Source: Clostridia bacterium
Lineage (GTDB): Bacteria; Bacillota; Clostridia; Christensenellales; Aristaeellaceae
NCBI GenBank assembly: GCA_017434085.1
Contig: JAFRFY010000007.1
Span: 1-51,052 of the forward strand
Direction: 5' to 3'
Length of the DNA stretch: 51,052 nt
In this document: positions 8,688-24,072 of the stretch, one piece after another
Position numbering within the stretch: the first letter of the stretch is position 1
Layout of the letters: every line of letters starts with the position of its first letter
The notes under the pieces: model-generated
Databases searched by the model: none
Told to the model about the DNA's origin: nothing
What the model saw: only the letters and a program-made list of their open reading frames with translations
Position numbers and translations under genes: made by a program

Positions 8688-10208
8688 ATGGGCGAGAAGA
8701 TCGTCTCCATGGAACATATAACGAAGGAATTTCCTGGTGTCAAGGCGCTGGACGACGTGCATTTTGAGCTGGAGGCCGGCGAGGTCATGGCCCTGCTGGG
8801 GGAAAACGGCGCGGGCAAATCCACGCTGGTGAAGATACTGAGCGGGGTCTACACGCTGGATCACGGCAGCCTGAATATATTCGGAAAGGATTACAAAAGC
8901 CTGACGCCCAACATGGCCCGGGAGGTGGGCGTGGCCATCATCCACCAGGAGCTGAACATGTGCCGCGACCTCACGGTCTGCCAGAACATGTACCTGGGCC
9001 GGGAGATGAAGTCCGGCTTCGTACTGAACAACGCGAAGATGGAAAAGGAGGCCCGCAAGTACCTGGACGAGCTGGGCGTGGACATCGACCCCCGCCAGGT
9101 GGTGGGGGATCTGCCGGTGTCCAAGCAGCAGATGATCGAGATCGCCAAGGCGCTGTCCATCAACGCGAAGATACTGATCATGGACGAGCCCACCTCGGCG
9201 CTGACCTCCCGCGAGATCGAGGAGCTGTTCCAGATCATCCACCGGCTCAAGAACCAGGGCTGCGGCATCGTGTACATCTCCCACAGGCTGGAGGAGCTGG
9301 CGCACATCGCGGACCGCGTGACCATCATGCGCGACGGCCGGTTCATCACCCAGGGCAATTACGCCGACTTCACCATGGACGAGATCATCGCCAACATGGT
9401 GGGCCGCGAGATCAAGGAGAAGTTCCCGAAGGTGGTCTGCCCCCGGGGCGAAAAGGTGTTCGAGGTCAAAAACCTGAACGCCGGCAGGCTGGTGCGGGAT
9501 ATCAACTTCTCGCTCTACGCCGGCGAGATCGTCGGCATCGCGGGGCTCATGGGCGCCGGGCGCACGGAGACCACCCGCGCGATATTCGGCGTCGACCCCA
9601 AGCAGAGCGGCAAGATCTTCCTGGACGGGAAGGAGATCACCATCAACGGCCCCATGGACGCCATACGCGCCGGCGTGGTGCTGGCCCCGGAGGACCGCAA
9701 GAAGGACGGCCTGTGCACCAAGCTGAGCATCCGGCAGAACATCGCGCTGCCGAACCTGGACGTCATCGGCGGCAAGTCCGGCATCATCAACAAAAAGACC
9801 GAGAACGATATGTGCGACAAGGCGGTCCGGGAGCTGGCCATCAAGACCCCGAACCTGGAGGTGGACGCCGCCACGCTCTCCGGCGGCAACCAGCAGAAGG
9901 TGGTCGTGGCGAAGTGGCTGGCCCGGAATTCCAGGGTCGTGATATTCGACGAGCCCACCCGCGGCATCGACGTCGGCGCGAAGGTGGAGATCTACCACCT
10001 GATGAACCAGCTCAAGCAGCGGGGCATCGCGGTGATGTTCGTCTCCTCCGAAATGCCGGAGGTCATGGGCGTGGCGGACCGCATCATCGTGATGTGCGAC
10101 GGCCGGATCACGGGCGAGCTCAAGGGGGGCGAGGCGACCCAGGAGGAGATACTGAGGCTCGCCACTTCCTTTGAGAACAAAATGGCCAGGGAAGGCGAGG
10201 AGGTTTGA
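8688..10208 (+). CDS. Sugar ABC importer ATPase, RbsA-type, two NBDs
   Basis: This 506-residue tandem ATPase powers a carbohydrate importer of the ribose/xylose/galactoside (CUT2) class. NBD1 has a complete Walker A (GENGAGKST at 38-46), the family's variant signature LPVSKQQ and Walker B ILIMDEPTS. NBD2 has the family's naturally altered P-loop (GLMGAGRTE), a standard signature LSGGNQQK and Walker B VVIFDEPTRGIDVG. It is the first gene of the operon, with the permease 3 nt downstream and the binding protein next. The D-lyxose isomerase downstream suggests a pentose cargo, but substrate cannot be read from the ATPase. Compare the inactive paralogue at 16145-17662. Confidence 0.95.
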   Translation: MGEKIVSMEHITKEFPGVKALDDVHFELEAGEVMALLGENGAGKSTLVKILSGVYTLDHGSLNIFGKDYKSLTPNMAREVGVAIIHQELNMCRDLTVCQNMYLGREMKSGFVLNNAKMEKEARKYLDELGVDIDPRQVVGDLPVSKQQMIEIAKALSINAKILIMDEPTSALTSREIEELFQIIHRLKNQGCGIVYISHRLEELAHIADRVTIMRDGRFITQGNYADFTMDEIIANMVGREIKEKFPKVVCPRGEKVFEVKNLNAGRLVRDINFSLYAGEIVGIAGLMGAGRTETTRAIFGVDPKQSGKIFLDGKEITINGPMDAIRAGVVLAPEDRKKDGLCTKLSIRQNIALPNLDVIGGKSGIINKKTENDMCDKAVRELAIKTPNLEVDAATLSGGNQQKVVVAKWLARNSRVVIFDEPTRGIDVGAKVEIYHLMNQLKQRGIAVMFVSSEMPEVMGVADRIIVMCDGRITGELKGGEATQEEILRLATSFENKMAREGEEV

Positions 10209-10211
10209 CCT

Positions 10212-11225
10212 ATGAAGAAAAAGGGCGCATTTGGACGGCTGCTGGCAATCAAGGGCGCGGGGTCCGTGCTGACGGCGTTTATCGGCCTCATCGTCATCTA
10301 TGTGGCCTTCGGCATCATGAACCCCAAGGTGTTCTCCATCATGAACATACAGAACCTCTTGCGGTCCATGTCCAAGTACCTGCTGATCGGCATCGGGCAG
10401 AGCTTCGTGATGATCACCGGCAACATCGACCTGTCCATAGGCTCCGTGGTGGGCATGAGCGCCATGACCTCCGCCACGCTGATGACCCGGGGCGTGAACC
10501 CCTTCCTGGCGATACTGCTGACCATACTCTGCGGCCTGATCGTGGGCGTGGTGAACGGCTTCCTGGTGGGCAAGTTCAAGCTGCCCCCGTTCATCGCCAC
10601 GCTGGGCACCATGTTCGTGGCGCGCGGCATCGGCTACATCGTCAACGGCAACCGCAACACCGATAACATCGCCTCCGGCATCGGCAAGGAGGCGGGCGAC
10701 GCCTTCCAGAATTTCTTCTACTACGGCAAGTTCGCCGGCATATTCAACACCTTCTGGATCGCGCTGGTGGTGTTCCTGGTGTTCTTCTTCCTGCTGGCCA
10801 AGACCCGCACGGGCCGCCACATCTACGCCATCGGCTCCAATGTGGACGCGGCGCGGCTGTCTGGCGTGGACGTGATACTCACCACCACCAAGGCCTACCT
10901 GGTCAGCGCGTTCTGCTCCGTGGTGGTGGGCCTGATACTGGCCGCGCAGGCCGGCATGGGCAACATGGACGCCGGCAACACCTATGAGATGTACGGCGTG
11001 GCCGCGGGCGTCATCGGCGGCGTGTCGCCGCTGGGCGGCTCCGGCATACTGCTGGGCACCTTCGCCGGCGCGGGCGTGTGGCAGATACTGGAGAACGGCC
11101 TGAACATGGTGCACGCGCAGGTCGGCATACAGCGCATCGTCATCGGCGTGATCGTGGTGATGGCCGTGCTGCTGGATGTGGTGATGCGCACCAACGACAA
11201 GAAGGGCTTCAAGAAGAAGTCCTGA
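10212..11225 (+). CDS. Sugar ABC importer permease, RbsC-type
   Basis: The 337-residue integral membrane protein forms the channel of the CUT2 importer. Family landmarks are NIDLSIGSVVGMSAM near residue 75, NGFLVGKFKLPPFIATLGTMFVARG, the cytosolic loop TRTGRHIYAIGSNVDAARLSGV that contacts the ATPase, and GVSPLGGSGILLGTFAGAG. About eight to ten hydrophobic helices are evident. AGGAGG at the end of the ATPase gene serves as its ribosome site, so the two are translationally linked. One permease gene implies a homodimer. Confidence 0.93.
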   Translation: MKKKGAFGRLLAIKGAGSVLTAFIGLIVIYVAFGIMNPKVFSIMNIQNLLRSMSKYLLIGIGQSFVMITGNIDLSIGSVVGMSAMTSATLMTRGVNPFLAILLTILCGLIVGVVNGFLVGKFKLPPFIATLGTMFVARGIGYIVNGNRNTDNIASGIGKEAGDAFQNFFYYGKFAGIFNTFWIALVVFLVFFFLLAKTRTGRHIYAIGSNVDAARLSGVDVILTTTKAYLVSAFCSVVVGLILAAQAGMGNMDAGNTYEMYGVAAGVIGGVSPLGGSGILLGTFAGAGVWQILENGLNMVHAQVGIQRIVIGVIVVMAVLLDVVMRTNDKKGFKKKS

Positions 11226-11285: not shown

Positions 11286-12215
11286 ATGAAGAGCAAGGTT
11301 TTGGCCATTCTGTGCTGCGTGGCGATGCTGGCGTGCATGATTGCGATGCCCGTATTCGCCGAGACCGTCACCGCCGACAAGCCCTACAAGATCGCCCTGA
11401 TCACCATGGACTCTGTCGACCAGCATTGGGTTTCCCTGAAGGAAGGCGCCGAGGCTGAGGCGAATGCCGACGGCGTGAGCGTGGATTTCATGTCCCCCGA
11501 CGTGAAGGACGACGCCAAGCAGATCGAGTGCATCAACAACGCGGTCGCGGGCGGCTATGACGCCCTGATCGTGGCGGCCAACAGCCAGGACGCCGTCTCC
11601 GGCGCGCTGAACGAGGCCGTGCAGTCCGGCATGAAGCTGATCTACGTCGACAGCCCCGCCAACGTCGAGGCCGAGGCCACCTTCTCCACCGACAACAAGG
11701 CCGCGGGCTACACCGCCGGCGAGCAGATGCTCAAGGCGCTTGCCGAGAAGGGCATCACCGAGGGCAGCATCGGCATCGTGAACATCAACACCTCCACCAA
11801 CTCCACGCTGATGCGCGAGGAGGGCTTCCGCGAGGCGCTGGACGGCAAGGGCTTCGACATCCTGGAGACCCAGTACTGCGAGGGCGACGCCGCCAAGGCC
11901 CAGACCATCGCTGAGAACTACCTGACCGAGGGCGTCGTGGGCATCTTCGGCGCCAACGAGGGCGCGGCCACCGGCACCGGCAATGCCATCAAGGCCTCCG
12001 GCAACGACCAGGTCGTGGGCGTTGGCTTCGACAAGTCCGATACCCTGCGCGGCCTGATCGCCGACGGCTATCTGTACTGCACCATGGCCCAGAACCCCGA
12101 CGTGATGGGCAAGTTGGGCGTGCAGGCGGCCATCCGCGTGCTCAACGGCGAGGACCTGGGCGGCGCCGTGACCGACACCGGCGTCAGCGTGCTGACCGCT
12201 GAGATTGTGGGCTAA
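11286..12215 (+). CDS. Sugar ABC importer substrate-binding protein, RbsB-type
   Basis: A 309-residue periplasmic-binding-protein type 1 component. It has a signal peptide ending around MPVFA, then the family pattern KIALITMDSVDQHWVSLKEGAEAEA, the hinge regions IVAANSQDAVSGAL, IYVDSPANVE and GIFGANEGAATGTGNAI, and VGVGFDKSDTLRGLI near the C terminus. A lipoprotein Cys is expected in a Gram-positive; C18 in MLACM is not a good lipobox, so anchoring is unclear. Codon use is more optimised than in neighbours (ATC before CTG and TTC), as expected for the most abundant part of the importer. A hairpin follows the stop. Confidence 0.93.
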   Translation: MKSKVLAILCCVAMLACMIAMPVFAETVTADKPYKIALITMDSVDQHWVSLKEGAEAEANADGVSVDFMSPDVKDDAKQIECINNAVAGGYDALIVAANSQDAVSGALNEAVQSGMKLIYVDSPANVEAEATFSTDNKAAGYTAGEQMLKALAEKGITEGSIGIVNINTSTNSTLMREEGFREALDGKGFDILETQYCEGDAAKAQTIAENYLTEGVVGIFGANEGAATGTGNAIKASGNDQVVGVGFDKSDTLRGLIADGYLYCTMAQNPDVMGKLGVQAAIRVLNGEDLGGAVTDTGVSVLTAEIVG

Positions 12216-12220
12216 AACCC

Positions 12221-12268
12221 ATTGAACCCCGATATGGGCCGGACTGCTTTTAGTCCGGCCCGTTCAAT
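12221..12268 (+). terminator. Two-tier hairpin after the binding-protein gene (attenuator-like)
   Basis: GGGCCGGACT and AGTCCGGCCC pair around GCTTTT; an outer ATTGAAC/GTTCAAT pairing extends the stem with an 8-nt bulge. No T-tract follows, so it is more likely a partial terminator or mRNA-stabilising hairpin that sets a high ratio of binding protein to downstream products. Confidence 0.6.
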
Positions 12269-12287
12269 AGCAAGGAGTGACAGAGCC

Positions 12288-12980
12288 ATGAAACGTTCCC
12301 AAATCAACAAGGCGCTCAAGGAGCTTGAGCAGATGATCAAGGAGTACCGCTACTTCCTGCCGAAGTTCTGCGATTTCACCCCGGAGGAGTGGCAGACCAA
12401 GGGCCACGAATGGGACGAGGTGCGCGACAACATGCTGGGCTGGGACATCACCGACTACGGCCTGGGCAAGTTCGACGAGGTGGGCTTCTCGCTCATCACC
12501 ATACGAAACGGCAATCAGCTCAGGCAGAAGGAGTACCCGAAGCCCTACGCGGAAAAGTTCCTGTTCCTCAAGGAGGGCCAGTACGCGCTCAACCACTTCC
12601 ATTGGTACAAGATGGAGGACATCATCAACCGCGGCGGCGGCAACCTGCTCATCCGCGTGTACAACGCCCACGAGGATGAGACCGTGGACTACGACAGCGA
12701 CGTGACCGTCCACGTGGACGGCGAGGTGCGCGTGGTCCCGGCGGGCACGCAGGTCAAGCTGGAGCCCGGCATGAGCCTGACCATCACCCAGCGGCTCTAC
12801 CACGATTTCAACGTGGAGCCCGGCACCGGCGCGGTGCTGATCGGCGAGGTCAGCCAGTGCAACGACGACAACGTGGACAACCACTTCGACCCGCCGGCCG
12901 GGCGCTTCCCCACCATCGAGGAGGACGAGCCCCCCTATCGCCTGCTGTGCAACGAGTATCCGCCGGCGCCGGAAAAGTAA
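12288..12980 (+). CDS. D-lyxose isomerase
   Basis: A 230-residue cupin-type sugar isomerase of the D-lyxose ketol-isomerase family (EC 5.3.1.15, B. subtilis YdaE-like), which interconverts D-lyxose with D-xylulose and usually D-mannose with D-fructose. The metal site is visible: His103 and His105 (NHFHWYK), Glu110 and His172 (LYHDF). The phrases KFCDFTPEEW, KFLFLKEGQ and EVSQCNDDNVDN also fit the family. The ATG at 12288 is preceded by AAGGAG; an earlier in-frame ATG lies inside the hairpin. It is the last gene of the rbsACB-type operon and gives the best clue to the transporter's sugar. Confidence 0.9.
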   Translation: MKRSQINKALKELEQMIKEYRYFLPKFCDFTPEEWQTKGHEWDEVRDNMLGWDITDYGLGKFDEVGFSLITIRNGNQLRQKEYPKPYAEKFLFLKEGQYALNHFHWYKMEDIINRGGGNLLIRVYNAHEDETVDYDSDVTVHVDGEVRVVPAGTQVKLEPGMSLTITQRLYHDFNVEPGTGAVLIGEVSQCNDDNVDNHFDPPAGRFPTIEEDEPPYRLLCNEYPPAPEK

Positions 12981-13372: not shown

Positions 13373-13503
13373 GCCAGGTACAACACGACGTATCGCTGTC
13401 AGGCGGGTGCCCATTCATGACTTCCGTCACGGCGCAACCGTAGCCCCAATTCCTCACTCCTCATTCCTCATTCAACACGTGACCCCACAGGATGGAGCGA
13501 ACC

Positions 13504-15090
13504 ATGATAAGAGTAGTGATCGCGGACGACGAGGAGCGCATCTGTCGGCTGATCATCGCCCTGGGCGAGTGGGAGCGCCTGGGCGTGGAGGTGGCCGGCG
13601 TCGCCATGAACGGCCTCGATGCGATGGCGCTGGTGAAGTCCGCCGCCGCGGACATGCTGATCACCGACATCCGCATGCCCGGGTGCAGCGGGCTGGAGCT
13701 GATCGAGCAGGTCAGGAAGCAGTCGCCGAACATCAAGATCATCATCATCAGCGGCTACGCCAGCTTCGAATACGCCCAGCGGGCGCTCAAGGACGGCGTC
13801 AACGACTACCTGCTCAAGCCGATCAACAAAAAGGCGCTCAACGAGGCCGTGGAGCGCCTGGCGGGCATGATCCGGTCCGAGAGGCAGAACCGCGCCGCCA
13901 TGGACGCCTCGGTGGAGCGCATGGAATCCATCCACCGCCTGCGCAGCGCGCTGATCTCCGACCTGCTGTCCGTGAACCCGCCCCGGGCGGACCGCGCCGT
14001 GCTGGAGGAGAAGTACCACTTCGCCTGCGGCAGGGGCGCCTTCCAGACGCTGGTGCTCAAGCTGGACATCCCGCCGTCGGTGGAGGACGGCGTGATCATC
14101 ACCGCCGTGCGGGAAAAGGCGCAGGCACAATTAGAGGAAGCGCTCGGGCAGTTCTGCGTCGACGCGGTGTGCCTGCCGCAGGAGACCTTCCTGTACGCGG
14201 TGTGCTGCTGCGAGGCGGAGGCGCTCGACCCCCTGCGCGACGCCCTGCGGGCACTGCTGGGCCGCATGCGGGCGTGGCGCAACCTGTACGGGGACGTCAG
14301 CTTCTCGATCGCCCTGGGGCCGCGCTGCGACAGCCCCCGCGACCTGGTGGAATCGCTGGCGGAGGCGCGGCGCGTGGTGGCGGAGCGGCTGATCGACGGC
14401 ACCGGCAAGGTGCTGGAAAAATCTGTCTCCGGCCAGGCGCCCCAGGTGAAGCGGCTGTCGGACGAGTGCTTCCGCCAGCTGAACCGCGCCATCGACGAGT
14501 CCGACGCCGCCGGCGTCGCCCAGGCCATCGCCAAGCTCAAACAGAGCGTGGGGGATTGCCCGGGCGTCCACGGGTGGGAGATACTGGAGATCGTGTACGA
14601 GGCGGGCAACCTGATGTTCACCCGGCTGGACCTCCCGGACAGGAAGGAGGCCCGGGACGCCTTCTACCGCGCCTGCGATTCCAGCCGGTCGGTATCGGCG
14701 CTGTTCGACGTGCTGTCGGAGACCTCCCGGGTGTGCATGGAGCGCATGTGCGAGCTGGAGCGCGAGAACGTGACGCGCCCCGTGCGGCAAGCCTGCGAGT
14801 ACATACGGGCGCACTACGATCAGCAGATCACCCTGGAGGAGGTCAGCCTGCACGTGGGGCTCAACCCCGCGTACCTGAGCGTGCTGTTCAAAAAGGAGAT
14901 GGATCAGGGCTTCGCCCACTACCTGATGAGCGTGCGCATCGAGGAGGCCCGGGAGCTGCTTCGGGAGAGCAACGCCCCGGTGGCGGAGATCTGCCGCCGG
15001 GTGGGCTACAACGACATCAAGCACTTCACCCGCATATTTGAAAAGAGCGTGGGCGTGAAGCCGGGAATCTACCGGAAGCTCTACGGTTGA
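13504..15090 (+). CDS. Response regulator with AraC-type DNA-binding domain, YesN-like
   Basis: The 528-residue transcription factor has an N-terminal receiver domain (IRVVIADDEERIC, phospho-acceptor Asp55 in MLITDIRMPG, Lys in DYLLKPINK), a long middle region of about 270 residues typical of YesN proteins, and a C-terminal AraC pair of helix-turn-helices (ITLEEVSLHVGLNPAYLSVLFKKE, then VAEICRRVGYNDIKHFTRIFEK). Such regulators normally activate a sugar transporter operon in response to the partner kinase. The ATG at 13504 has GGAG 7 nt upstream. Its stop lies 8 nt before the kinase start. The likely target is the rbsACB-lyxose isomerase operon just upstream. Confidence 0.93.
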   Translation: MIRVVIADDEERICRLIIALGEWERLGVEVAGVAMNGLDAMALVKSAAADMLITDIRMPGCSGLELIEQVRKQSPNIKIIIISGYASFEYAQRALKDGVNDYLLKPINKKALNEAVERLAGMIRSERQNRAAMDASVERMESIHRLRSALISDLLSVNPPRADRAVLEEKYHFACGRGAFQTLVLKLDIPPSVEDGVIITAVREKAQAQLEEALGQFCVDAVCLPQETFLYAVCCCEAEALDPLRDALRALLGRMRAWRNLYGDVSFSIALGPRCDSPRDLVESLAEARRVVAERLIDGTGKVLEKSVSGQAPQVKRLSDECFRQLNRAIDESDAAGVAQAIAKLKQSVGDCPGVHGWEILEIVYEAGNLMFTRLDLPDRKEARDAFYRACDSSRSVSALFDVLSETSRVCMERMCELERENVTRPVRQACEYIRAHYDQQITLEEVSLHVGLNPAYLSVLFKKEMDQGFAHYLMSVRIEEARELLRESNAPVAEICRRVGYNDIKHFTRIFEKSVGVKPGIYRKLYG

Positions 15091-15098
15091 GGCATGCC

Positions 15099-16148
15099 AT
15101 GAAGGATGACAAGCACTATCTGTCGCGCCGCGTCGCCATATTCTGCCTGATCGCGCCCGCCTGGGCGGTGCTGTTGGCGCTGTTTGCCTACCTGACGGGG
15201 CGCTTTCCCGGGCGCTTCGGCCTCTGGGGCTGGGCCGTGGTGATCGTCACCGGCGCGAGCCTGCCCGCGCTGGCCTATTACTGGATCTACCGGCCCTACT
15301 GCCGCTGCCGGGACACCGTGCGCCGCTTCATAGAGGGGTACATATCGGTGCATGAGCTGCGGGAGCTGACAACCGCGGTGTCCCCGGAGATCGACCGCTT
15401 CATCGCCGTAATCGACGGCGCCATGGCCAGCATGCGCAACCTGGACCTGTCCAAGCGGCAGGCCCAGTACCGCGCGCTGCAAAACCAGATCAACCCCCAC
15501 TTCCTGTACAATACCTTGGAGGGCATCCGCAGTGAGGCGCTGATCGCCGGGCTGGACAGCCTCGCGGACATGACCGAAGCGCTGGCCGCCTTCTTCCGCT
15601 ACACCATCAGCAAGGTGGAGAACCTGGTGACGGTGGAGGAGGAGCTGGAGAACTGCCGCACCTACTTCAAGATACAGCAGTACCGCTTTGGCAGCCGCCT
15701 GCGGATGCGCGTGCACATCGACCCCGAGGACGAGCGGGAGATACTGTGTTGCCTGATCCCCAAGCTGACCCTCCAGCCCATACTGGAGAACAGCATCATC
15801 CACGGCATCGAGCTCAAGCTGGGGGAGGGGCACATCGACATAGAAATCAGCCGCAGTCAGCGCCGGCTGCTGATCAGCGTCAGGGACGACGGCGTCGGTA
15901 TGGACCGGGAGGCGCTGAGGCGGCTGAACGGGCGGCTGGGCTCCAAGGAGGAGGAGCTTCGGGACATGACCCACGAGGCGCAGGGCGGCATCGCCCTGAC
16001 CAATGTGAACAATCGCATCCACCTGATCTTCGGCGAGGAGTACGGCATGCACGTGTACTCCGTGGAGGGCGAGGAGACCACGGTGGAGCTGACCATCCCC
16101 GCGATGACGGAGGAAAAGCGCGCATCGGGAGGCGGAGACGGGGCATGA
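15099..16148 (+). CDS. Sensor histidine kinase, YesM/LytS-type, lacking an external sensor domain
   Basis: A 349-residue membrane kinase of the His_kinase (PF06580) type. The phospho-accepting His134 is in NQINPHFLYNTLEGI; the N box (LQPILENSIIHGIE), G1 (DDGVGMD) and G2 (GGIALTNVNNRI) form the ATP domain. Two membrane helices (about 11-33 and 41-64) are joined by a loop of only about eight residues, and no dCache or other external domain is present, unlike typical YesM. It therefore resembles intramembrane-sensing kinases that read the state of a partner transporter. The ATG at 15099 has GAGG upstream; the TTG at 15087 is a less likely start. Its stop overlaps the next start as ATGA. Confidence 0.92.
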   Translation: MKDDKHYLSRRVAIFCLIAPAWAVLLALFAYLTGRFPGRFGLWGWAVVIVTGASLPALAYYWIYRPYCRCRDTVRRFIEGYISVHELRELTTAVSPEIDRFIAVIDGAMASMRNLDLSKRQAQYRALQNQINPHFLYNTLEGIRSEALIAGLDSLADMTEALAAFFRYTISKVENLVTVEEELENCRTYFKIQQYRFGSRLRMRVHIDPEDEREILCCLIPKLTLQPILENSIIHGIELKLGEGHIDIEISRSQRRLLISVRDDGVGMDREALRRLNGRLGSKEEELRDMTHEAQGGIALTNVNNRIHLIFGEEYGMHVYSVEGEETTVELTIPAMTEEKRASGGGDGA

Positions 16149-17662
16149 AGCAGGAGGTACTCCGGCTGGAGCGCGTCACCTATCGCGCCGACGGCATCAA
16201 CATACTGGACAATTTCTCCTTCCACATCGCCCGGGGGGAGATACTGGGCCTTCAACCGCTGGACAACGACGGGCTGGACGCGCTGTTGGACATCATACAG
16301 AACAACCCGCCGCTGTACTTCGGCTTTGTGTACTACATGGAGAACTGCGTCAACACCTGGCGCGGCATCCACCGCACCAAGAACCGCGTGACCGTCATCG
16401 GCAGCGAGAGCTCGCTGGTGAAGGGCATGGATGTGGTGACCAACATATTCGTGCTGCGCCCGGGCTTTCGGCAGGAGATGATCCACCGGGCGCTGCTGTC
16501 CCGCCAGCTCAGGCCGTTTCTGGAGGACATCGGCGTCAGCATCGACCCGGCCACGCTGGTGGACCACCTCTCCGCCTTCGAGCGCATGGTGGTGGAGATT
16601 TTGCGGGCCGTGGTGGCGGGGCACCATCTGATCATACTGCGGGAGATCGGCTCCGTGGTCAGCGAAAACGACCTGGAGCAGCTGCACGGCATCATGCGCC
16701 ACTACGCCGCCCGGGGGTTTTCGTTCCTCTACATCAGCCCGCACTACGAGGAGATTCGGCAGGTCTGCACCCGCATGGTGCTCATGCAGGGCGCCGCCAT
16801 ACAGATGAGCCGCAGCGGGCGGGACATCCGGCAGGGCATCAGCGTCATGTATTACAGGGAGTACTACGACCACGTCACCCGGCGCATACGCCGGCGGGAA
16901 TGGATGGACCGCGGAAAGGCGCTTCTGGAGGCGAAGAACATCAGCGGCGAATACCTCGATCGCTTCCGTTTCTCGCTGTACCGGGGGGAATGCCTGATCA
17001 TACAGAACCTGGACATGGCCATCCACCAGGAGCTGACCGCCATATTAAGCGGCAACGACACAAAAAACCGCCCCGAGCTGATGCTCAACGGCAGGCAGAT
17101 ACGGGGGTTCGGCTCCCGGGAGGTGGCCTACGTGCGGGAGGACCCCGCCCGGACGATGATCTTCGAGGACATGAGCGCGCTGGAGAACATCTGCATCGCG
17201 CTGGACGGCCGGGTGCCCTCCGTCTGGCGGCGGCAGGGCGTCCAGCGGGCCGTCCGCGAGGAATACGCGCGGCTGTTCGGGGACGACTGCATCGACGGGG
17301 CCGTCAGCGCGCTCACCCAGGCCGAGCGCATCCGGCTGGTCTACGCCCGCATCATGTTCCAGCGCCCGCAGGTGGTGTTCATCGAACAGCCCTACAAGAA
17401 CGCCGACGTCAAGCTGCGCTTCCAGATTTTCAGCCTGCAGGAGATGCTGCTGAACCGGGGGGTGTCCATCGTCATACTCGCCGTCAACATCGCCGACGGC
17501 CTCACCCTGGCGGACCGGCTGGTGCGCGTGGGGCTCAAAAACGGCCGCATCGAGACCCGGGAGTACCTGCAAAAGGACTTCGCCTCCCTGCCCATCAATA
17601 TCCCCTGGGTGGATGTGTTCAGCGATATCCGCAAGGATCGCGCCGCGGAGGGGCGGGGGTAG
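16145..17662 (+). CDS. RbsA-like tandem ABC protein with both ATP sites destroyed (pseudo-ATPase)
   Basis: The 505-residue product aligns end to end with RbsA-type ATPases (506 residues for the copy at 8688), but the nucleotide-binding motifs are gone. In NBD1, Walker A GENGAGKST is replaced by QPLDNDGLDA (37-46, no P-loop Lys), the signature by LSAFER, and Walker B DEPT by REIG (166-169); a His remains in YISPHYEE. In NBD2, the P-loop region reads NLDMAIHQE, the signature LTQAE, and Walker B FIEQP (catalytic Glu to Gln). The frame is intact and codon use normal, so it is a maintained gene, not a pseudogene. Start-stop overlap with the kinase (ATGA) implies stoichiometric synthesis. I infer a structural or signalling role: binding permease or kinase, with no ATP hydrolysis. 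Confidence 0.85.
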   Translation: MKQEVLRLERVTYRADGINILDNFSFHIARGEILGLQPLDNDGLDALLDIIQNNPPLYFGFVYYMENCVNTWRGIHRTKNRVTVIGSESSLVKGMDVVTNIFVLRPGFRQEMIHRALLSRQLRPFLEDIGVSIDPATLVDHLSAFERMVVEILRAVVAGHHLIILREIGSVVSENDLEQLHGIMRHYAARGFSFLYISPHYEEIRQVCTRMVLMQGAAIQMSRSGRDIRQGISVMYYREYYDHVTRRIRRREWMDRGKALLEAKNISGEYLDRFRFSLYRGECLIIQNLDMAIHQELTAILSGNDTKNRPELMLNGRQIRGFGSREVAYVREDPARTMIFEDMSALENICIALDGRVPSVWRRQGVQRAVREEYARLFGDDCIDGAVSALTQAERIRLVYARIMFQRPQVVFIEQPYKNADVKLRFQIFSLQEMLLNRGVSIVILAVNIADGLTLADRLVRVGLKNGRIETREYLQKDFASLPINIPWVDVFSDIRKDRAAEGRG

Positions 17663-21415: not shown

Positions 21416-22513
21416 TCAGGCCTCCTTTTTGGGCGCATGCCGGAAATTGATCTTGTAGTTGATAAAGAACTCGCTGCCGATGATGAAGAACAGTATGATG
21501 CCGGTGAGTATGTCCGAGAAGGACTGGTCCAGCCCGAAGCTCGTCGAGATCTCGCCCGCGCCGCGCTGCAAAAACACGATCAGGAAGCTGGTGAGCACCA
21601 TCCAGATGGGGTTGAACTTCGCCAGCCACGACACCATGACCGCCGTGAAGCCGCGGCCCGCGGTGATGGTGGTGGTCAGCGTGTGGTCGGTGCCGCCGAC
21701 CAGCAGCATGCCCGCCACGCCGCACAGGCCGCCGGAGAGCAGCATCGTGCGCACGATGACCCTGTCCACCTTGATGCCCACGTAGCGGGCGGTGCGCTCG
21801 CTCTCGCCCACCACGGCGATCTCGTAGCCGTGCTTGGAGAAGTTCAAATACACGTACATCGCCAGGCAGATGGCGCCGACGACCAGTATGTTCAGCAGGT
21901 ATTTCTGCCCGCCGATCACCGGCAGCCAGCCGATTTCCGACTGCTGGTTGATGATGCCGATCTTGCCCGCGCCCTTGGGCACCTCCCAGACGATGATGAA
22001 GAACGCGACCAGCTGGGTGGCGATGTAGTTCATCATCAGCGTGAACAGCGTCTCATTGGTGCCCCACCGGGCCTTGAAGAAGGCGGGGATGCCGCCCCAG
22101 ACGGCCCCGGCGATGATCGAGGCGACGATCATGCACAGTATCACGCCCCAGTTGGGCAGCACGTCGCGCAGGCAGATCATGCAGGCCGCGGTGGCCAGGC
22201 CGCCGACCAGCATCTGCCCCTCGCCGCCGATGTTCCAAAACCGCATGCGGAAGGCCGGGGTGACGGCCAGCGACACGCACAGCAGTATGGCGATGTTCTG
22301 AAACAGCACCCAGGCGCGCCGGGGGCTGCCGAAGGAGCCGCTCCAGATGGTGGCGTAGATGCTGATGGGGTTTTCGCCGGTGACCAGCATGGTGACCGCC
22401 GCGCAGGCGATCAGCGCCAGCAGCACCGCGCAGCCCCGCACCAGCCAGCCCTTGTACCAGGGCAGCTCGCCCCGCTTGGAGATGTGAAACAGGGGTTCCT
22501 TCACGTTATTCAT
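21416..22513 (-). CDS. Nucleoside-type ABC importer permease, NupP-like
   Basis: The 365-residue first permease of the importer. The pattern GENPISIYATIWSGSFGS, AFRMRFWNIGGEGQMLVGGLAT, GTNETLFTLMMNYIA and the coupling loop KHGYEIAVVGESERTARYVGI is typical of NupP/YufP. The ATG at 22513 overlaps the end of the ATPase gene by 8 nt and is served by GGAGGT inside it, so ATPase and permease are translationally coupled. About ten helices. Confidence 0.92.
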   Translation of the reverse strand: MNNVKEPLFHISKRGELPWYKGWLVRGCAVLLALIACAAVTMLVTGENPISIYATIWSGSFGSPRRAWVLFQNIAILLCVSLAVTPAFRMRFWNIGGEGQMLVGGLATAACMICLRDVLPNWGVILCMIVASIIAGAVWGGIPAFFKARWGTNETLFTLMMNYIATQLVAFFIIVWEVPKGAGKIGIINQQSEIGWLPVIGGQKYLLNILVVGAICLAMYVYLNFSKHGYEIAVVGESERTARYVGIKVDRVIVRTMLLSGGLCGVAGMLLVGGTDHTLTTTITAGRGFTAVMVSWLAKFNPIWMVLTSFLIVFLQRGAGEISTSFGLDQSFSDILTGIILFFIIGSEFFINYKINFRHAPKKEA

Positions 22514-24041
22514 TGGAGCCACCTCCGATTCGCGTCATCATCAGGCCCAGCTCCCGCTTGTCGGTTTTGCGCCCGTCCACGATGCCGCTGACCCTGCCGC
22601 CGCACAGCACCAGTATCCTGTCCGCCAGCTCCACCAGCACGTCCAGATCCTCGCCCACGTAGATCACCGCGACCCCGGCGGCCTTCTGCCGGTTGATGAG
22701 GTCGTAGATGGTGTAGGAGGAGTTGATGTCCAGCCCGCGCACGGCGTAGGCGGTCAAAAGCACCGACGGGGCCTGGGTGATCTCCCGGCCCACCAGCACC
22801 TTCTGCACGTTGCCGCCGGACAGCCGCCTCACCGGGGTGGAGAGGTTCGGGGTGACCACGTCCAGCTCCTCCACCACGTTTTCCGCCACGCGGCGGGGGG
22901 TCTTGCGGTCCGTGAACACCGATTTTCCCCGGCGGAAGGTGCGCAGCATCATGTTGTCGGACAGGTCCATGTTGCCCACCAGGCCCATGCCCAGCCGGTC
23001 CTCCGGCACGAAGGACATCGTCACGCCCATGTCGTGGATCTGCCGGGGGTCCTTGCCGATCAGGTTATCCCGGGCGCCGTCGTCCCGGATGTACTCGATC
23101 TGCCCGCGCTCCATGGGCTGGAGCCCCGCGATGGCCTCCAGCAGCTCCTTCTGGCCGGAGCCGGAGATGCCCGCGATGCCCAGTATCTCGCCGGAGTTGG
23201 CGGTGAAGGACACGCCGTCCAGCTTGAGGATGCCCTCCTCGCTGCGCACGGTCAGGTCCCTGACCTCCAGCCGGGGGCGCGGGTTGACGGGCTCGGGCCG
23301 GTCGATGTTGAGCGTCACGGCGCGGCCGACCATCATGTTGGTCATCTCCTGGGCGTTGGTCTCGGCGGTGGCCATGTCGCCGATGTAGTGGCCGCCGCGC
23401 AGCACCGCCACCCGGTCCGAGAGGCTCTCCACCTCGTGCATCTTGTGGGTGATGATGACGATGGCCTTGCCGTCGTCGCGCATGTTCCGAAGCACGTTGA
23501 ACAGCTTGTCGGACTCCTGCGGGGTCAGCACGGCGGTGGGCTCGTCGAGGATCAGTATGTCCGCGCCGCGGTAGAGCACCTTGACGATCTCCACCGTCTG
23601 CTTCTGGGAGACGGACATGTCGTAGATCTTCTGCTTCGGGTCCACCTCGAAGCCGTACTGCGCACAGATGGCGTTGATCTTCTCCGTCGCGCCGGCCAGG
23701 TCCAGCTTGCCCTTGATGCCCAGCACGATGTTCTCCGCGGCGGTCAGCACGTCCACCAGCTTGAAGTGCTGGTGGATCATGCCGATGCCCAGGGCAAAGG
23801 CGTCCTTCGGCGAGCTGATGACGACTTCCCTGCCATCGATGAGGATTTGTCCCTCGTCCGGAAAGTAGATGCCGGCGAGCACGTTCATCAGCGTGGTCTT
23901 GCCGGAGCCGTTCTCGCCCAGCAGCGCCAGTATCTCGCCCCGGCGGATATCGAGGGAAATGTCATCGTTGGCGACGATGCCCTTGAACCCGAACCGCTTC
24001 GTGATGTGCCTGAGCTCAACGGCGGGCGCCTTTTTCTGCAT
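22506..24041 (-). CDS. Nucleoside-type ABC importer ATPase, NupO-like, two NBDs
   Basis: The 511-residue tandem ATPase energises the NupPQ permeases. NBD1 is complete: Walker A GENGSGKTT, Q-loop MIHQHFKLVD, signature MSVSQKQ, Walker B ILILDEPTAVL and H-loop ITHK. NBD2 has the family's changed P-loop (GISGSGQKELLEAIAG) and a good signature (LSGGNVQK), but its Walker B reads LLTAYAVRGLD, losing the acidic pair more fully than most relatives, so only site 1 should hydrolyse ATP. The ATG at 24041 has GGAG 8 nt upstream. A stable hairpin separates it from the binding-protein gene. Confidence 0.93.
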   Translation of the reverse strand: MQKKAPAVELRHITKRFGFKGIVANDDISLDIRRGEILALLGENGSGKTTLMNVLAGIYFPDEGQILIDGREVVISSPKDAFALGIGMIHQHFKLVDVLTAAENIVLGIKGKLDLAGATEKINAICAQYGFEVDPKQKIYDMSVSQKQTVEIVKVLYRGADILILDEPTAVLTPQESDKLFNVLRNMRDDGKAIVIITHKMHEVESLSDRVAVLRGGHYIGDMATAETNAQEMTNMMVGRAVTLNIDRPEPVNPRPRLEVRDLTVRSEEGILKLDGVSFTANSGEILGIAGISGSGQKELLEAIAGLQPMERGQIEYIRDDGARDNLIGKDPRQIHDMGVTMSFVPEDRLGMGLVGNMDLSDNMMLRTFRRGKSVFTDRKTPRRVAENVVEELDVVTPNLSTPVRRLSGGNVQKVLVGREITQAPSVLLTAYAVRGLDINSSYTIYDLINRQKAAGVAVIYVGEDLDVLVELADRILVLCGGRVSGIVDGRKTDKRELGLMMTRIGGGSNE

Positions 24042-24072
24042 ATGCTTCACTCCTTCGGATAATGAACAGCGA

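Follow-up and report, generated by a model that had tools for sequence, protein, structure and literature searches.

A predicted non-catalytic RbsA-like protein encoded with sensor-less YesM kinases, and its possible role in reading a sugar importer

The 51,052-nucleotide stretch of Clostridia bacterium DNA analysed here (the window) carries, directly behind genes for a YesN-type regulator and a YesM-type kinase, a gene for a full-length relative of the sugar importer ATPase RbsA whose ATP motifs have been erased. We refer to this protein as pseudo-RbsA. In the sequences compared, it belongs to one clade that has lost these motifs, is under purifying selection, and has a distribution that tracks the kinase and not the transporter. 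On balance we think it probable that pseudo-RbsA, a derivative of RbsA without catalysis, serves the YesMN system as a third component, one that would replace the sensor domain of the kinase and report the state of the importer to it. The genes concerned are the following.

8688..10208, + strand: intact RbsA-type ATPase of the linked importer (domain profiles and motif alignment)
10212..11225, + strand: RbsC-type permease (named by eye and by its place; relatives occupy the same place)
11286..12215, + strand: RbsB-type sugar-binding protein (Pfam)
12222..12980, + strand: D-lyxose isomerase, a hint to the substrate (passes the Pfam cut-off but not that of the NCBIfam D-lyxose/D-mannose equivalog)
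13492..15090, + strand: YesN-type response regulator with receiver, GGDEF-like middle and AraC HTH (Pfam domains)
15087..16148, + strand: histidine kinase of the YesM type, with no extracellular domain (9 residues join its two membrane helices; the His and ATPase regions are intact)
16145..17662, + strand: pseudo-RbsA, a 505-aa tandem NBD protein, predicted not to be an ATPase (ORF, domain and motif comparison)

The pseudo-RbsA gene

The pseudo-RbsA frame runs uninterrupted from an ATG at 16145 to a TAG stop at 17660-17662, and the sequence ATGA holds both its start codon and the TGA that ends the kinase gene (15087-16148). The intact frame and the overlap are thus as a preliminary description of this DNA had given them, and its statement that the protein keeps the length and fold order of a tandem sugar ABC ATPase also holds: the RbsA-type tandem NBD layout of about 500 aa is present in the 505 residues, and the NCBIfam XylG-type and RbsA models match along the entire protein, at 138.5 and 111.3 bits. 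These scores are far from the cut-offs of 699 and 745, a failure that weighs little because the neighbouring RbsA itself falls under its best NCBIfam cut-off (581 against 699). With Pfam at E-values up to 1, the sole domain found was ABC_tran, weakly (32.6 bits, against 175 in the neighbouring RbsA), and no PhoU domain was detected. Within its own genome the next 14 matches to pseudo-RbsA score 44-116 bits at 20-25% identity, and a PDB sequence search gave generic NBD matches only, among the matches listed. A known defence function was rejected, as PADLOC gave no match.

Loss of the composite ATP site

We compared the ATP motifs of 29 pseudo-RbsA proteins, the window's included, with those of 23 RbsA proteins from the same loci. 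The corresponding segments of the window gene are these.

16256..16282, + strand: erased NBD1 P-loop, PLDNDGLDA (GENGAGKST in RbsA)
16397..16468, + strand: segment past the Q-loop position, residues 85-108 (top-ranked zone against windows of equal length)
16568..16588, + strand: NBD1 signature position, LSAFERM (non-canonical in RbsA already)
16628..16651, + strand: erased NBD1 Walker B, LIILREIG (VLIMDEPT in RbsA)
17003..17029, + strand: NBD2 Walker A position, QNLDMAIHQ (motif alignment with RbsA)
17312..17332, + strand: erased NBD2 signature, LTQAERI (LSGGNQQ in RbsA)
17372..17401, + strand: erased NBD2 Walker B, VVFIEQPYKN (IEQPY lies opposite FDEPT of RbsA)

In the window protein the H-loop His is replaced by Pro and the Q-loop Gln by Ser. 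None of the 29 pseudo-RbsA proteins carries GxxxxGK[ST] within its first 70 residues, LSGG or DEPT, motifs that were found in 23/23, 22/23 and 23/23 RbsA proteins; the single RbsA lacking LSGG is truncated at a contig end. The Walker B Asp and the H-loop His of NBD1 and the signature glycines of NBD2 are lost in 29/29, and the Walker B Glu of NBD2 has become Gln in 24, Lys in four and Arg in one. What survives is the acid following the NBD1 Walker B Asp position, which is E or D in all 29, the Lys at the P-loop position in seven and the Q-loop Gln in three. Since the motifs are absent across all 29 homologues, neither chance nor sequencing error accounts for their loss.

In the 23 RbsA proteins the NBD1 signature (LPVSKQQ or similar) and the NBD2 Walker A (AGLMGAGRT) are already non-canonical, and RbsA of B. 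subtilis has a single canonical composite ATP site according to the accessible part of PMC11466899. RbsA-type proteins therefore normally own one good composite site, and it is exactly this site that pseudo-RbsA has lost. The residues on which the preliminary description based its view that both ATP sites are erased are confirmed, but the count of two has to be reduced to one; of the two signatures that it took to be gone, that of NBD2 is lost in all 29, while that of NBD1 is non-canonical in RbsA too. Its P-loop and Walker B losses stand, with the qualification that the second Walker B acid is universal and the P-loop Lys occasional. That the protein should not be a working ATPase by family rules agrees with the absence of the motif set from every member of the clade, although three distant relatives (L091, L096, L122) keep the NBD1 Walker A.

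Conservation was ranked for 17 zones in the sequence alignment against windows of equal length, the ranking being nominal and uncorrected. The zone of residues 85-108, past the Q-loop position, scored 0.645 against 0.538 overall, and a fraction of 0.021 of the equal-length windows reached that score, the lowest among the 17 zones; the H-loop zone is as high (0.654, fraction 0.051). The P-loop zone of pseudo-RbsA is average at 0.552, against 0.797 in RbsA. We take the segment past the Q-loop position to be permease-facing in ABC importers, and zone conservation agrees, only weakly, with a mechanism in which the permease would be read.

Elsewhere in the window (22506-24050, - strand) lies a tandem ATPase of the importer type, with LLTAYAVRG at its NBD2 Walker B, so that its second site looks degenerate as well. 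NupO of B. subtilis has a likewise degenerate second site, as the consulted portion of PMC11466899 reports, so this ATPase is an ordinary one.

Family, selection and descent

A protein search at 1e-40 found pseudo-RbsA in 12 of 200 genomes of the window's family, its own included, and in 6 of 50 genera. A profile built from these 12 members scores them at 589 bits or more and the RbsA proteins of the same stretches at 194 or less; at 1e-66 it found 4 of 396 order, 13 of 391 class and 4 of 299 phylum genomes, the window's own being counted each time. Score cut-offs were chosen after inspection of the known members, and with three to five candidates scored per genome in the profile searches, second copies may be missed. 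In all there are 29 distinct members including the window's, at 95 down to 27% identity to it, and a thirtieth, in genome G583, is cut at a contig end. Near-identical named records come from the uncultured Clostridiales MAGs RUG11088 and RUG13574, the gene being split over two contigs in the latter; we take the RUG prefix to denote rumen genomes. No relative was found in viral contigs. All 29 members match ABC transporter ATP-binding profiles, and automatic annotation is likely to name them accordingly, so that these genes may be miscounted as transport genes.

Frameshifts and stops were looked for in the relatives. No member is broken internally: in G171, G1129 and G1222 the one stop reported per match is the normal terminal codon of the gene, and one copy (L036) is short, at 455 aa. 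In nine of ten close pairs, some of which share a row, dN/dS of pseudo-RbsA was 0.04-0.20, and the L062-L063 pair was saturated and gave no value. These ratios lie within the spreads of YesM (0.03-0.31) and YesN (0.01-0.28) and mostly above those of RbsA and RbsC. The view that the gene is maintained is thus borne out by purifying selection, and with unbroken frames in 29 members and dN/dS far below 1 we rejected decay or sequencing error.

A quick maximum-likelihood tree of 67 rows, from which seven near-copies or fragments had been dropped, places 26 pseudo-RbsA rows in one clade (SH-aLRT 98) and the linked RbsA proteins, together with the RbsA of L088, in a separate one (100), with similar branching inside both; branches are long and deeper placement is unsure. 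A recent duplication of the neighbouring RbsA was rejected, because in this tree the pseudo-RbsA clade lies outside the linked RbsA.

Association with YesM and YesN

An AraC-type YesN, a PF06580 kinase and pseudo-RbsA form one gene run whose order is kept in 27/29 loci. The YesM gene is directly upstream of pseudo-RbsA in 28 of the 29, overlapping it in 20 and separated from it by 3-26 bp in eight, and YesN precedes YesM in 27, the 28th locus being at a contig edge; homologues that lack the motifs do, then, adjoin YesMN genes, the point on which the preliminary description had proposed to check its reading. The intact importer gene rbsA lies beside the run in 23/29 loci, one copy being cut, and rbsA, rbsC and rbsB are all present in 22, with rbsB of L052 split over two frames. 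At L059 an rbsA fragment reaches the contig end, and L036, L053 and L064, which have no visible rbsA, are short contigs or loci at a contig end; at L028 no rbs gene was seen within roughly 1 kb on the upstream and 4 kb on the downstream side. Two layouts occur, rbsACB-(isomerase)-yesNM-pseudoA as in the window and yesNM-pseudoA-rbsACB. At one locus (L030, 4296-8351) a second YesMN-like pair, with a kinase of about 500 aa, and an RbsB-like protein follow right after the pseudo-RbsA operon.

Genome G885 departs from this pattern. Its pseudo-RbsA gene is solitary (L058, 9215-10666), flanked by isoleucyl-tRNA-synthetase-like and peptidase-like genes as judged by eye, and a yesNM-rbsACB run without it lies on another contig (L088, 7283-13806). 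Pseudo-RbsA and yesNM are unlinked in this genome, yet both are retained.

The phospho-acceptor His and the ATPase motifs are conserved in all 28 kinases, and by simple hydropathy each has two hydrophobic segments near the start with 2-11 residues between them; in five, a further weak segment appears within the catalytic half. A loop of this length leaves no room for an extracellular domain in any of the 28. The kinase profile gave 12 matches at 453 bits or more among the 200 family genomes, identical to the 12 with pseudo-RbsA, and 14 at 434 bits or more among the 391 class genomes, 13 of them with pseudo-RbsA. The fourteenth, G583, has about 170 aa of the protein at a contig end, and the next matches reach at most 310 bits. 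Among the genomes searched, none had pseudo-RbsA without its kinase.

The importer does occur alone. RbsA of the linked clade, at 820 bits or more of a linked-RbsA profile, was found in 11 of 80 family genomes without pseudo-RbsA, which were hand-picked, not random, and include all eight of the window's genus; in the tree, all 11 fall within the linked-RbsA clade. None of these 11 importer-bearing genomes has the kinase at 434 bits or more. Where the flank is visible (L111, L113, L114, L115, L118 and L119) there is no yesNM, only weak AraC-type matches, and in the other five (L109, L110, L112, L116 and L117) the contig breaks off before that point; next to the importer of L110 lies a YesN fragment, so this genome (G021) may carry the cassette on sequence past the contig end. 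The importer can thus exist without the cassette, in which kinase and pseudo-RbsA are the constant pair, and with a transporter clade found without the cassette and a gene never found without the kinase in the genomes searched, the tie is to the kinase rather than to transport. Mere co-location with transport was rejected on these grounds.

Distances between pseudo-RbsA proteins correlate with those of YesM (0.96), YesN (0.96), RbsA (0.90) and RbsC (0.86) over 17 loci with all six genes, after removal of six near-copies or doubtful rows; because YesM and RbsC correlate at 0.91 with each other, these values show inheritance as a unit and not contact.

Next-nearest kinases

The 14 kinase matches below 310 bits from the family and class searches, few and related as they are, formed a contrast set. 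All six sensor-less kinases among them (L090 and L092-L096) adjoin an RbsA-like protein without a signature, on the opposite strand at L090; for L092 and L094 only one kinase helix was called. Five of these six neighbours lack all three motifs sought, and that of L096 retains both Walker A motifs. In eight kinases a stretch of roughly 100 or more residues lies outside the membrane, and of these only L091 and L122 have a signature-less RbsA-like neighbour, next to yesN in the former and two genes off in the latter; both neighbours retain the NBD1 Walker A. The RbsA-like protein beside the kinase of L121 has its Walker A and signature intact, and the other five kinases have no signature-less neighbour, L126 having an intact RbsA. 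The contrast of 6/6 with 2/8 gives a Fisher p of 0.0097 from few, related rows. The Walker A motifs kept at L091, L096 and L122 indicate that loss of ATP binding is not general among RbsA-like partners of YesM.

The RbsA-like proteins beside the sensor-less kinases of L090, L092, L093, L094 and L095 are dead and far more diverged than pseudo-RbsA. The importer near these five differs as well, with an intact RbsA and an RbsC-like permease.

A model for pseudo-RbsA and its alternatives

We suggest that pseudo-RbsA sits at the membrane beneath the kinase, in place of the missing sensor domain, and that it keeps an NBD shape able to feel the permease and passes a signal on to the kinase. It might take the place of RbsA on the RbsC dimer, using the kept segment past the Q-loop position, or it might touch RbsA/RbsC from the side. 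The kinase would be switched by the sugar loading or flux of the importer, and expression of rbsACB would probably be set through YesN. Such a role would be like that of PhoU between PstSCAB and PhoR, with the connector made from a dead transporter ATPase.

We counted in favour of this proposal the motif loss in 29/29, the single clade and the low dN/dS; the adjacency of YesM in 28/29 loci, the lack of a sensor in 28/28 kinases and the reciprocal match of kinase and pseudo-RbsA; the importer without a cassette and the retention of both unlinked genes in G885; and the 6/6 against 2/8 contrast with the top rank of the post-Q-loop zone. Against it we counted the nominal nature of that ranking, with the H-loop zone as high; the P-loop Lys in 7/29 and the Walker B acid in 29/29, which might still serve noncanonical nucleotide binding; the unlinked G885, L028 without rbs genes, the YesN fragment of L110 and the Walker A of L091, L096 and L122; and the rarity of the cassette, in 12/200 family genomes.

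The same distribution with the kinase, and the separation from rbsACB in G885, would also be expected if pseudo-RbsA never touched the importer and served as a YesM-bound cytoplasmic sensor or scaffold that responds to a small cytoplasmic ligand, for which a sugar phosphate, or a nucleotide bound in an atypical pocket, would be candidates. We regard this as unlikely, if worth serious consideration, given that the protein descends from a transporter ATPase, that rbsA lies beside it in 23/29 loci and that the best-ranked zone is the presumably permease-facing one. Its RbsA-like layout of two NBDs and the kept post-Q-loop segment could instead point to a negative transport subunit that limits import by occupying the RbsC dimer in competition with RbsA, with the adjacency to yesNM reflecting co-regulation; the gene overlap, however, is with yesM and not with the rbs genes, co-occurrence is one-to-one with the kinase, and the sensor-less kinases would be left unexplained, so that we consider this improbable.

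It is more improbable still that the protein only binds ATP or is a divergent ATPase that cycles with unusual motifs. The Walker B acid in 29/29, the P-loop Lys in 7/29, the Q-loop Gln in 3/29 and the Walker A of the relatives L091, L096 and L122 could be read in this way, but the Walker B Asp, the H-loop His and the NBD2 signature glycines are lost in 29/29 and GK[ST] occurs in none. We give almost no credence to a decaying paralogue of the neighbouring RbsA, for which only the motif loss itself and the short L036 member speak: the clade lies outside the linked RbsA in the quick, long-branched tree, dN/dS is far below 1 and frames are unbroken inside among the 29.

Returning to pseudo-RbsA as a link between importer and kinase, the next-nearest kinases allow a wider proposal, which we hold with slightly more doubt than belief: that a widespread class of sensor-less YesM kinases swapped its extracellular sensor for a dead importer ATPase, with more than one origin or more than one bout of diversification (the 29-member clade and L090 and L092-L095, beside the Walker A-keeping relatives L091, L096 and L122), and that the real sensor would be the dead ATPase, reading the conformational cycle of the importer.

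Relation to known systems

Pseudo-RbsA resembles the RbsA/XylG/AraG monosaccharide ATPases in length, tandem NBD order and full-length profile matches; it differs from them in its destroyed composite ATP site, in scores far below the curated cut-offs, and in being encoded with yesM beside a transporter that owns its RbsA. From what the accessible parts of PMC9769921 and PMC10384115 describe, XylFII-LytS-YesN and CuaDSR are similar in that a second copy of a transporter part was recruited to a kinase/regulator of sugar import; there, however, the recruited part is an extracellular binding protein that acts on a kinase domain outside the cell, whereas here the accessory part is cytoplasmic and ATPase-like and 28/28 kinases have no extracellular domain. 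PstSCAB-PhoU-PhoR likewise combines a kinase without the usual periplasmic sensor, an importer and a separate linker protein (PMC6978683, in the sections available), but in our case there is no PhoU domain, a homologue of transporter ATPases would act as the linker, and the kinase belongs to PF06580 (YesM).

In flux sensing by BceAB-BceS, as far as it is set out in the available text of PMC10314905, a kinase without a dedicated sensor domain is tied to an ABC protein, and the kinases linked to pseudo-RbsA share with the Bce-type module two helices and the absence of an extracellular domain. In contrast, BceS packs against the helices of BceB, its function is peptide resistance, and that text describes no extra dead ATPase. 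A search of the literature on YesM/RbsA and on dead ABC ATPases with kinases, covering titles, abstracts and few subscription papers, yielded no such component; a paper on Clostridium phytofermentans (PMC3899296, in the portion consulted) concerns CUT1 systems and other kinases. Precedents thus exist for each element (PhoU, BceS, XylFII-LytS, CuaDSR), and the combination appears not to have been met in the literature searched.

The locus suggests a testable input for sensor-less YesM kinases, a dead ATPase beside an importer that it could report. Judged from its sequence, pseudo-RbsA would be a clear case of an ABC ATPase with catalysis lost that selection nevertheless maintains, probably in a signalling role, and the partly degenerate relatives show possible steps toward catalysis-free RbsA-like proteins.

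Substrate of the linked importer

Genes of the D-lyxose isomerase type also occur at L026, L027, L052, L053 and L065 and near the cassette-free importers of L112 and L113, and a mannose-6-phosphate isomerase-like gene was recognised by eye near L071 and L119. Our guess is that the importer takes up mannose or a related monosaccharide. Genes beside the locus at L061 (13476-19757) resemble by eye an inositol-degradation set, so the substrate may differ between lineages. L062 (3568-5376) has an RbsB-type frame of some 600 aa, double the usual length, which is perhaps a fused pair of binding proteins; the RbsB-type frame of L063, which is cut, may resemble it.
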